A stretch of 64,000 nucleotides of DNA from Poseidonocella pacifica (GTDB lineage Bacteria; Pseudomonadota; Alphaproteobacteria; Rhodobacterales; Rhodobacteraceae): NCBI RefSeq assembly GCF_900111875.1, contig NZ_FOJU01000003.1:1-64000 (forward strand), read 5' to 3'. Numbering within the stretch: the first letter of the stretch is position 1; each line of letters opens with the position of its first letter. Position numbers and translations under genes: made by a program. Shown piece after piece: positions 56,475 through 61,090 of the stretch. A model generated the notes under the pieces. The model was given only the letters and a program-made list of their open reading frames with translations, ran no database searches and had not been told where the DNA came from.

Positions 56475-57569
56475 ATGAATCACCTGTCACCACTCGGCAG
56501 ACTCCCTTCACCACCCGCCCCCAAATCCGGCTTGAGCGGACTTTCCCGCAAGCATAAGGCCGCGATCATCGTGCGGTATCTGACGGCCGAGGGTGCGGAT
56601 ATTCCGCTGAAGTCCCTGCCCGAAGACATGCAGATCGAGTTGACGCAGCTCATCGGCCACATGCGCTATATCGACCGCAAGACACTCATGGCCGTAGTCA
56701 CCGAATTCGCCAAGGAACTGGATTCCGTCGGGCTTGCCTTTCCTGATGGGCTCGCCGGGGCGCTGACCGCACTCGATGGCAAGATCAGCCCGCTCACGGC
56801 TTCCCGCTTGCGCCGCGAAGCGGGCGTACGCCAGTCAGGTGATCCGTGGGAACGGCTCGCCGCGTTGGAAATTGCCGATCTCATGCCCTTCTTTGAAAGC
56901 GAAAGTACCGAGGTTTGCGCCGTCCTTCTGTCGAAACTCGATGTCAAGAAGGCCGCCATGCTGCTTGGGAAGCTATCAGGGCCGCAAGCGCGCCGTATTG
57001 CCTATGCCGTCTCGCTCACCGACAAGGTGACGCCCGATGCCGTCTATCGCATCGGACTGTCCCTCGCGAGCCAGCTGGACGACCAGCCGGTCAAAGCCTT
57101 TGATACCGGGCCGGAGCGACGCGTGGGGGAAATCCTCAACTTCAGCCAGGCACTCACGCGCGACGACGTTCTTGAGGGGCTTGACGAAACGGATCAGGAT
57201 TTTGCCGAAGCGGTGCGCCGTTCGATCTTTACCTTCGGCAACATTCACGCACGTATTCGGGGCGGAGATATTCCGCAGGTGGCGCGAGAAGCCGATCAAG
57301 AGTCGCTTGTCATCGCCCTTGCCTATGCCCAGTCGCGCGGCGAAGACATGGCAAAGTCGGCCGAATTCGTCCTGCAAAACATGTCACGCCGCCTCGCGGA
57401 TGCCCTTCGCGACGAAATCAATGAGCTCGGCAAGGTCAAAGCCAAGGACGGTGAAGAAGCCTGTTCCGCTGTGGTCGGATCAATTCGCCAGATGATTGAC
57501 CTCGGCGAGTTGGAAATGGTCGACCCGAGCGAAGTCGAGGAGGACGACGACGGCGATTCCGGCGAATAG
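56475..57569 (+). CDS. divergent FliG-like flagellar motor switch protein, orphan
   Basis: 364 residues. The C-terminal part matches FliG (AVRRSIFTFGNIHARI.., then LQNMSRRLADALRDEI), as does the N-terminal SRKHKAAIIVRYL, but the middle-domain EHPQ motif is replaced (FESESTEVCAVLLSKL), and the C terminus carries an acidic tail (EVEEDDDGDSGE). No other flagellar gene is nearby. It could be an accessory or second-system FliG, or a non-flagellar protein using the ARM-repeat fold. 105 bp after choV; no terminator seen between. Confidence 0.8.
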   Translation: MNHLSPLGRLPSPPAPKSGLSGLSRKHKAAIIVRYLTAEGADIPLKSLPEDMQIELTQLIGHMRYIDRKTLMAVVTEFAKELDSVGLAFPDGLAGALTALDGKISPLTASRLRREAGVRQSGDPWERLAALEIADLMPFFESESTEVCAVLLSKLDVKKAAMLLGKLSGPQARRIAYAVSLTDKVTPDAVYRIGLSLASQLDDQPVKAFDTGPERRVGEILNFSQALTRDDVLEGLDETDQDFAEAVRRSIFTFGNIHARIRGGDIPQVAREADQESLVIALAYAQSRGEDMAKSAEFVLQNMSRRLADALRDEINELGKVKAKDGEEACSAVVGSIRQMIDLGELEMVDPSEVEEDDDGDSGE

Positions 57570-58000: not shown

Positions 58001-58624
58001 ATGGCCGAATCCGAGCAGCCGAGCCTTTATCTCATCACCCCGCCGGAGATAGACCTGTCTATCTTCCCAGACAGGCTCGCTGCGGTTCTTGATGCCGTCG
58101 AAATCGCCTGTGTGCGCTTGGCCCTCGGCACACGCGACGAAGACCGTATCGCTGCCGCTGCTGACACCTGTCGAGAGGTGACGCATGCGCGGGACGTAGC
58201 CCTCGTGGTGGATACCCATTTCCTCCTTGCCGAACGCCATGGTCTCGACGGTGTTCACCTCACCGATGGATCCCGCACAGTACGCAAGGCGCGTCTTGCG
58301 TTGGGCGATGATGCAATCGTCGGTGCCTTCTGCGGTGCCTTGCGCCATGATGGGATAAGTGCGGCGGAAGCAGGCGTGGACTATGTCAGCTTTGGGCCAG
58401 CCGGTGCCTCGGCGCTTGGAGATGGCGCCAAAGCGGAGGCGGACCTGTTCAGTTGGTGGTCCGAGATGATCGAGGTTCCCGTGGTCGCCGAAGGCGCCCT
58501 AACGCCAGAGATTGTGGGCGAACTTGCTCCGTTTACCGACTTCTTCGGGATTGGCGAGGAGATATGGGGCGGAGACGATCCCGTTGCCGCACTCAAGGCG
58601 CTACTTGCGCGCATGAGGGGCTAA
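58001..58624 (+). CDS. ThiE-family (thiamine phosphate synthase-like) protein with degenerate active-site motifs
   Basis: 207 residues of TIM-barrel ThiE/TenI fold. Order of strands is recognisable (SLYLITPP, DGVHLTDG, VDYVSFGP, VPVVAEGAL), but canonical ThiE motifs are altered: NDR is VDT, HLGQ is HLTD, the GPxxxTxTK phosphate loop is GPAGASALGDG, and GGI is EGA. So standard thiamine phosphate synthesis is doubtful; a TenI-like or other role is possible. It overlaps the convergent olsA gene by 24 bp at the 3' end. Confidence 0.75.
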   Translation: MAESEQPSLYLITPPEIDLSIFPDRLAAVLDAVEIACVRLALGTRDEDRIAAAADTCREVTHARDVALVVDTHFLLAERHGLDGVHLTDGSRTVRKARLALGDDAIVGAFCGALRHDGISAAEAGVDYVSFGPAGASALGDGAKAEADLFSWWSEMIEVPVVAEGALTPEIVGELAPFTDFFGIGEEIWGGDDPVAALKALLARMRG

Positions 58625-59440
58625 CGCGCCCTCCAACCCGGAACGAACGCAGAGTTCCATTTCTGCCGCCAGAACCTTGCGGTCGGCAAAGTCGGCGACA
58701 GAAACCGGTGGATGGTATATGACTTCCACCCGTCCCTGTTTCCGAGCAGCCAACACCTTGAGCAGATGAGAGGCGAAATCCATCGTCCCCCACCATCCAT
58801 AGAATCTGGGATCTTCGCCCTCGGGCGCGTGGTAGACGAGCGTAACGGGTTGTATCTGAAGGCTGTCCCGGAGATGCGGGGCAAAGAATGCTGCGAAGAG
58901 CGTCGGCTTGAACGGCAGCACCCTCAGCCCATCCGTCGAGGTGCCTTCGGGAAAAAACAACAGACGGTGCCCCGCGTCGAGCCTTTCCCGAAATACGGCC
59001 TCCTGCCGTTTGGCATCCGTCCGCTCGCGTCGAATGAAAACCGTGCCGGTGCCCCGCGCCAGTGGTCCGATCGCCGGCCATGAGGCAACCTCCGCCTTGG
59101 CAACGAAGTAAATGTTCTTGCGGGCGTTGAGGGCAAAAATATCCAGCCATGACACGTGGTTGGCCACGACCGCACCCCGTCCGCGCAATGGCTGACCGTG
59201 AGAGATATGGCGCATTCCGATAAGGCGAAATACTTTCCGGGACACGCCTTGGGTCAGGAAGGGGGTCACTGGGCGGCGCGCCCCAAATATGGGCCGCTCT
59301 ATGAGGCGTGAAAGTACCATCAGAAGAAAGCCCGCCGTGACCAAGGCAGCGACAGGTACTCCCCGGCGGACCACCCGTAGCCATTCCCGCGCGCCAAACC
59401 TCGGAGCGGGAAGCCCCTCCTCCGGTCGCCAAGTCGTCAC
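58601..59440 (-). CDS. olsA: lyso-ornithine lipid O-acyltransferase (PlsC family)
   Basis: 279 residues. Membrane-anchored 1-acyltransferase: the hydrophobic segment VAALVTAGFLLMVLS precedes the HxxxxD motif NHVSWLDIF and the FFPEGTST substrate motif. With OlsB it makes ornithine lipid, the second acylation step. GTG 59440 overlaps the olsB stop as GTGA, so the genes are coupled; an upstream in-frame start inside olsB is not supported. Confidence 0.9.
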   Translation of the reverse strand: MTTWRPEEGLPAPRFGAREWLRVVRRGVPVAALVTAGFLLMVLSRLIERPIFGARRPVTPFLTQGVSRKVFRLIGMRHISHGQPLRGRGAVVANHVSWLDIFALNARKNIYFVAKAEVASWPAIGPLARGTGTVFIRRERTDAKRQEAVFRERLDAGHRLLFFPEGTSTDGLRVLPFKPTLFAAFFAPHLRDSLQIQPVTLVYHAPEGEDPRFYGWWGTMDFASHLLKVLAARKQGRVEVIYHPPVSVADFADRKVLAAEMELCVRSGLEGALAPHARK

Positions 59441-60216
59441 TTGACGCCTCGGGTGTAGATTTTCGACTGCACCTCGTTCATCTGGGCCGTATCCAGGATC
59501 AGGCAAATGTCTGTGGTGTTGAAGGCGCGGTCGATAAATGCCCCCTCGCCCACCACTCCGCCCAAGCGGAGATACGCCTTGATCAAAGAGGGAACCTCAC
59601 GCATCGCGGCCGGCCGATCAATTTCTTCATCGGAAAGCAAATCCTCTGTCCGAAAGGCGGATTTGAGAGCCCTAGGGCGCAGTTCGGGCGCAGCCAGATG
59701 CCTATGGTGCAAAAGCGAAAGCGGCGCACGCAGCGCGTCGATATCAGTGCCGTGAAAACTCGCGACGCCAAAGAGTATTTCGATGTCCTTCGCGAGGACA
59801 TAGGCCGCAAGCGCGTTCCAAAGCAGATGCACCGCCGTGCCGCCGCGATATTCCGGATGGACACAGGAACGACCAAGTTCGAGCAGTCGTCGGCCAGATT
59901 GGCGCAGTGGACTCAGGTCATATTCGTCGTCGCAGTAGAACCGGCCTGCGGCGCTTGCGCCCCGCTCCGTCATCAACCTGTAGACCCCAACCACGTGGTC
60001 AAGCTCCCCGGGATCACGGTGTTTGTCCACCAGGATCAAGTGCTCGGATACTGCATCGAATTCGTCGCGCTCAAACCTTTCGGCATGATCGACATGCGGA
60101 CCATTCCCGCCAAGCTCTTCCACGAAAACGCCATATCGCAAGCGTTGCGCCGCGAGAAAATCCGACTCTCCGCGCGCGAGCCTGGTCTCGAACGAGCCCG
60201 CCCCTGTCATCTTCAT
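59437..60216 (-). CDS. olsB: L-ornithine N-alpha-acyltransferase (GNAT superfamily)
   Basis: 259 residues: RLRYGVFVEELGG near the N terminus, YRLMTE, and LELGRSCVHPEYRGG are the conserved OlsB/acyltransferase motifs. Transfers a 3-hydroxyacyl group to ornithine, first step of ornithine lipid synthesis, allowing phosphate-sparing membranes. First gene of olsBA; a perfect CtrA box lies 47-61 bp upstream. Confidence 0.9.
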   Translation of the reverse strand: MKMTGAGSFETRLARGESDFLAAQRLRYGVFVEELGGNGPHVDHAERFERDEFDAVSEHLILVDKHRDPGELDHVVGVYRLMTERGASAAGRFYCDDEYDLSPLRQSGRRLLELGRSCVHPEYRGGTAVHLLWNALAAYVLAKDIEILFGVASFHGTDIDALRAPLSLLHHRHLAAPELRPRALKSAFRTEDLLSDEEIDRPAAMREVPSLIKAYLRLGGVVGEGAFIDRAFNTTDICLILDTAQMNEVQSKIYTRGVK

Positions 60217-60262
60217 TGCACGGGCCCCGCAGTTCGGAGATTGTGAACGGCACTTCGCATTC

Positions 60263-60277
60263 TTAAGGTCCTGTTAA
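60263..60277. promoter_or_regulatory. CtrA binding site TTAA-N7-TTAA upstream of olsBA
   Basis: TTAA-GGTCCTG-TTAA (60263-60277), with a C after the second half on the plus strand (TTAAC), matches the CtrA consensus exactly. It is 47 bp upstream of olsB ATG, in the 65-bp gap to the DUF3553 gene. The CtrA phosphorelay gene chpT lies 214 bp away. Confidence 0.7.
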
Positions 60278-60281
60278 CCAT

Positions 60282-60467
60282 CTACGTGTCAAAAACCGGC
60301 TCCAACATGACACGTGTGCCATCTATCACCACTTTGCCTGCCTCCCGGAAGTTCACCGTTGTTTTCCCGTCGATCCGTGATTGTACTTGCCCGACGCCCC
60401 ATTCAGGCGCACCGGGATGGCGGACCAGCATTCCGGGTTCTAGCATGCTGTTGAGATCATCGGCCAC
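60282..60467 (-). CDS. DUF3553 small protein
   Basis: 61 residues opening MADDLNSMLEPGMLVRHPGA with the SH3-like PEWGVGQVQSRIDGKTTVNF block typical of DUF3553, also found at the end of UvrD-like helicases. A CarD/Tudor-like fold is likely, but function is unknown. Divergent from chpT by 23 bp. Confidence 0.85.
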   Translation of the reverse strand: MADDLNSMLEPGMLVRHPGAPEWGVGQVQSRIDGKTTVNFREAGKVVIDGTRVMLEPVFDT

Positions 60468-60490
60468 TTGGAAAACTTTCGAGGATTGCC

Positions 60491-61090
60491 ATGGAAAAGA
60501 CGCAAGATAACCTTGTCGCGCTCGTCGGGTCGCGTATCTGCCACGATTTGATCAGCCCGATCGGCGCGATCAGCAATGGTGTAGAGTTGATGTCTATGGC
60601 AGGCAGCTCTGGTGAGCAAGAGTTGGCCCTGATCACAGAAAGCGTGGAGAATGCCAACGCGCGGATCCGTTTCTTTCGTGTAGCCTTTGGCGTGGCCCAT
60701 GCCGACCAGATGCTCGGTGGTCGTGAGATCGCGGGAATTCTCTCCGATTTGTCCAAGGGAAGCCGTTTCAGCATCAATTGGCAAGTTGGTACCGACCTGC
60801 CCAGAGCAGAGGCCCGCGTCGCCTTCCTCCTGCTGCTTTGCTTCGAAACTGCCATGCCCTTCGGCGGTGAATGCACCGTGACCCGCGATGGCGAGAGCTG
60901 GAAGCTGGAAGGTACCGCCCCGAAGATGCGGCAAGAGGATGGGCACTGGGTTCTGATAACCGACCCAGATGGTGGTCATGAGATCAGCGCCTCAATCGTG
61001 CACTTTGCACTGGCCCCGGATGTGGCCTCCCGCATCGATCGGCAAATCCGTGTCGAGCGGGACCCGACCTGGATCTGCCTGACGTTCTAG
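60491..61090 (+). CDS. chpT: histidine phosphotransferase ChpT
   Basis: 199 residues. The phosphoaccepting His18 is in [20 protein letters not shown], matching ChpT, which relays phosphate from CckA to CtrA and CpdR. The rest is a dimeric degenerate ATPase-like fold without N- or G-box motifs. Its stop shares CTAG with the convergent proA stop. Confidence 0.93.

Follow-up and report, generated by a model that had tools for sequence, protein, structure and literature searches.

Does a CtrA box in front of ornithine-lipid genes control these genes, or does it belong to a different neighbour? The question is raised by TTAAGGTCCTGTTAAC, the single match to the full CtrA site within the window, i.e. 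the whole stretch of 64 kb that was analysed. An earlier note on this DNA had assigned this box to the ornithine-lipid operon olsBA. Here the box, its neighbourhood and the corresponding loci of relatives are described, and the possible targets are weighed against each other.

The box and its neighbourhood

The box matches TTAA-N7-TTAA(C) perfectly. According to dinucleotide shuffles, 0.02 occurrences of the full site and 0.09 of the 15-mer are expected by chance in the window. On one side of the box is the stop codon of a DUF3553 gene and on the other is olsB, the gap between these measuring 65 bp (Table 1). The chpT-ward half of the box is extended to an ungapped variant of the CtrA site (TTAACCAT), a form that has been described (PMC6180460). 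The family consensus at this half-box is GTTAACCAt on the plus strand. Judged by its sequence, the box is a real CtrA-type site at which binding is predicted. The perfect box claimed by the earlier note is thus confirmed, but the ATG of olsB follows 46 bp after its end and not 47 bp.

Table 1. Positions of the box, the neighbouring genes and the putative chpT promoter elements in the window.
Feature	Position	Strand	Basis or remark
olsA, lyso-ornithine-lipid O-acyltransferase, start uncertain	58601..59437	-	NCBIfam NF052552, 425 bits, cut-off 300
olsB, ornithine N-acyltransferase	59437..60216	-	NCBIfam NF052554, 414.5 bits, cut-off 350
Full CtrA site TTAA-N7-TTAAC, TTAAGGTCCTGTTAAC	60263..60278	+	Match and family-wide conserved position
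TTAACCAT, chpT-ward half-box extended to ungapped CtrA variant	60274..60281	+	Immediately next to the stop codon of DUF3553
DUF3553 gene, 54 aa, Tudor-like	60282..60446	-	Pfam PF12073, E 2.4e-25; same strand as olsB
Putative chpT-ward -10, TCAAAAA	60289..60295	+	Weak match; family geometry and R. sphaeroides CtrA promoters
Putative chpT leader, covering most of DUF3553 in antisense	60301..60490	+	Relatives lack a promoter signal closer to chpT
chpT, histidine phosphotransferase of the CckA-ChpT-CtrA relay	60491..61090	+	Pfam PF10090, E 6e-22

OlsB and OlsA both score above the NCBIfam equivalog cut-offs. For ChpT the Pfam HPTransfase domain was found, and the NCBIfam ChpT equivalogs of Caulobacterales and of Brucella/Rhizobiales match below their cut-offs. 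The order chpT, DUF3553, olsB, olsA is kept in essentially every relative first collected. DUF3553 is a Tudor-like domain that forms the C-terminal extension of DinX from M. tuberculosis (PMC6511836). Here it is encoded by a stand-alone gene, almost always beside chpT. In the earlier note chpT was thought to adjoin the box directly. However, the DUF3553 gene lies between the two and, since chpT is divergent from DUF3553, chpT is one gene further from the box than first thought.

Two further genes may be mentioned. At 56475-57569, only a few genes away from chpT, a homologue of FliG is encoded (Pfam FliG_N, M and C). A second OlsB-like acyltransferase, 31% identical and present in most relatives, is located elsewhere in the genome (L087, G000:C9:758489-759157) and is possibly a glutamine-lipid enzyme.

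CtrA itself is encoded in this genome (G000:C9:952661-953335). The protein passes NF045991 and is 76% identical to a Caulobacter-type CtrA sequence. A pattern search of the 3.62-Mb genome gave 12 perfect TTAA-N7-TTAA sites versus 20 sites for the reversed control pattern. Since the pattern is not enriched genome-wide, it is the context of the boxes and not their count that carries the argument from the genome. Other perfect boxes precede genes for a CckA-like kinase, a PAS-domain kinase, which may be DivL, and a single-domain response regulator, as well as motB and luxR. Another one (L195, G000:C6:132306) is located between the divergent genes of an Hpt protein and of a response-regulator/SpoIIE phosphatase; this pair resembles the partner-switching genes that are linked to CtrA in R. 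capsulatus.

Conservation and promoter geometry in relatives

Conservation was evaluated in the gap between DUF3553 and olsB, both in 165 loci remaining after dereplication and in a second set with one locus per genus (127 genera). Exact TTAA-N7-TTAA was found in 20 of the 165 gaps (0.25 expected), and 81 gaps contain it with at most one mismatch (5.5 expected, sd 2.3). With one locus per genus, the latter form is present in 61/127 gaps versus 4.4 expected. Conservation of the box in relatives, put forward as a check in the earlier note, is strong. All other spacings from 0 to 17 occur in 8-24 gaps each among the 165 loci. The single clear second peak is at spacing 6 (24 gaps), which is a known variant of the CtrA site in R. 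sphaeroides (PMC6180460). Because of the excess at spacing 7 over expectation, the box behaves as a selected CtrA-type site.

On the strand directed towards chpT, 25 of the 81 boxes are followed by a TA at offset 27, which is often part of GCTAGCGT. Among the 32 loci in which the DUF3553 stop codon cannot confound the signal, 14 have this TA. Counted once per genus, it is found in 17/58 cases versus 2 on average at the remaining offsets (binomial p 5e-12, with genera treated as independent). This arrangement agrees with mapped CtrA promoters of R. sphaeroides, which start 23-24 nt past the site and carry an A at -11 (PMC6180460), and many relatives possess a chpT-ward -10 with such an A, placed as far from the site as in R. 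sphaeroides. In the corresponding TCAAAAA of the window the A is correctly placed, the remainder of the motif is poor, and the element overlaps DUF3553 codons.

Loci without the box often possess a chpT-ward TTGAC-N16-[CT]TA, its -10 being placed as in the box loci (L170 is an example). A loose version of this TTGAC-type promoter and the box tend not to occur in the same locus (odds ratio 0.21, p 4e-4), as if one had replaced the other as upstream element; 58 of the 165 loci contain neither of them. Closer to chpT, promoter signals were absent in relatives from the chpT/DUF3553 spacer (about 40 bp) and, once conserved codons were recognised, from the DUF3553 coding region. Hence, we infer that transcription of chpT is driven from the gap between DUF3553 and olsB, with a leader antisense to DUF3553. 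Matches to TTGAC-N17-TA inside DUF3553 (8 loci) were rejected as promoters, as they represent conserved codons. For a DUF3553 promoter inside chpT only weak signals were obtained, confounded by coding periodicity. A search of 60150-60700 in the window revealed neither a sigma-70 consensus promoter nor a terminator.

The olsB side is organised differently. Neither a position-anchored element nor a -10 was detected there in the 81 aligned boxes or in the window. Instead, an olsB-ward TTGC-N17-[CT]TA occurs in 73/165 gaps at exactly the N17 spacing, and in most relatives its distance to the box varies between 5 and 90 bp. Going by these patterns, olsB has in most relatives its own predicted promoter, TTGC-N17-TA, which is separate from the box. 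When about 165 loci are ranked by their olsB-promoter score, the best score in the window is the 7th lowest. The sister species (G071) resembles the window in that the box has been retained and the usual olsB promoter lost.

Two of the genomes in which the genes have been separated are informative as well. In G149, chpT/DUF3553 are 33 kb away from olsB; a one-mismatch box is located beside DUF3553 and none before olsB. In G087, too, the neighbour of the box is DUF3553; olsB is about 1.9 kb away from it and has none. An unrelated open frame of 528 codons is inserted between DUF3553 and olsB in the latter genome (L275, 396-1979). In these two genomes, the box stayed with chpT/DUF3553 and not with olsB. 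Of the other genomes with a separated olsB, three lack the box at both genes (G017, G194 and G054) and one has an ambiguous one-mismatch site only (G008). G139, which has lost DUF3553, retains a degenerate site only.

Assignment of the box

From the site, its conservation, the geometry in relatives and the co-segregation with chpT, all computed here and comparative in nature, we consider it rather probable that the box belongs to the chpT promoter as its CtrA site and mediates feedback via a leader antisense to DUF3553. If what applies to the relatives also applies to this genome, phosphorylated CtrA would bind to the box as an activator, and RNA polymerase would start about 23-24 nt past the box toward chpT, which is expected near 60301. 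The transcript would run antisense through DUF3553 into chpT, and the outcome would be a feedback loop on the CckA-ChpT-CtrA phosphorelay. The family argument for this assignment appears strong. For this one genome the argument seems weaker, because the chpT-ward -10 of the window is poor and the olsB promoter is lost. In other lineages, the chpT-ward promoter carries a sigma-70 -35 box in place of the CtrA site; consequently, feedback on chpT probably arose or disappeared on repeated occasions.

Several points count against the chpT promoter. It is unusual for a leader to run antisense to a coding gene, the geometry is taken from relatives, and the box was seen to stay with chpT in two genomes only. 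The same holds for three published observations: chpT is unchanged in a ctrA mutant of D. shibae (PMC4046655; PMC7232146), a site upstream of chpT was not found in Ruegeria KLH11 (PMC3692519), and chpT was never reported in any CtrA regulon (PMC11999139). In Rhodobacterales, chpT is treated as a phosphorelay gene outside CtrA control. If a conserved site is hidden behind DUF3553, earlier searches upstream of chpT could easily have overlooked it. Assignment of the box to chpT predicts a loop in species with the box form and none in those with the TTGAC form.

Of the earlier proposal that the box serves the ornithine-lipid operon, the real CtrA-type site and the link to chpT hold, but the geometry favours chpT over olsBA as target. 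These genes are probably the wrong neighbour, and assignment to the nearest gene would then wrongly put olsBA into the CtrA regulon. Direct control of olsBA by CtrA from the box, either alone or together with chpT from a shared divergent site, is in our opinion doubtful; it is still to be considered because the family's usual olsB promoter is missing in the genus of the window. Moreover, apart from the box no recognisable element precedes olsB in the 65-bp gap, which is even shorter in the sister species, and divergent promoters sharing one CtrA site are known (PMC6180460). However, a fixed-distance -10 is lacking on the olsB side. In most relatives olsB has a promoter of its own, whose distance to the box is not constant, and in the genomes with separated genes the box was not carried along with olsB. 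Moreover, olsBA could here be read through from DUF3553. In addition, a paper linking CtrA with olsB was not found in the openly licensed literature searched, where both terms occur together in a single review, on the Brucella envelope. This counts against direct control and is in line with the earlier statement that cell-cycle or phase-dependent control of ornithine lipid synthesis is not known to be described.

In this genome, expression of olsBA may come from read-through out of DUF3553 or may rely on the box. A single box acting in both directions in this genus, on chpT via the antisense leader and on ornithine-lipid synthesis after loss of the ancestral olsB promoter, seems distinctly unlikely to us. 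If true, such a two-way box would tie membrane composition to the CtrA programme.

Finally, a decayed or chance site that is effectless in this genome is very improbable: the genome-wide count, which does not exceed that of the reversed control, and the weak -10 of the window would fit such a site, but the box occupies a family-conserved position that is also kept in the sister species, and the genome count gives a chance of about 2e-4 for a perfect site in a 65-bp gap.

Comparison with known systems

The olsBA genes of the window resemble the bacterial ornithine-lipid operon in both enzyme families and gene order, and for that operon a link to CtrA is undescribed in the literature found. Several of the box-preceded genes in this genome resemble predicted CtrA targets of D. 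shibae (PMC4046655).

With regard to geometry, the closest counterpart of the putative chpT promoter are the CtrA-activated fla2 promoters of R. sphaeroides, in which the site likewise ends 23-24 nt before the start and an A is found at -11. In contrast to the start proposed here, the fla2 starts were mapped experimentally, and their leaders comprise 12-33 nt compared with about 190 nt for chpT.

With regard to function, the putative loop is related to the autoregulation of ctrA and cckA by CtrA in Rhodobacterales and Caulobacter; in D. shibae, CtrA sites have been reported at ctrA, cckA and divL (PMC4046655). In these systems, as proposed for chpT, feedback arises from a full CtrA site within the promoter of a gene of the phosphorelay. 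The difference is that the target here would be chpT, which is reported outside the CtrA regulon, and that the site is located beyond an intervening antisense gene.
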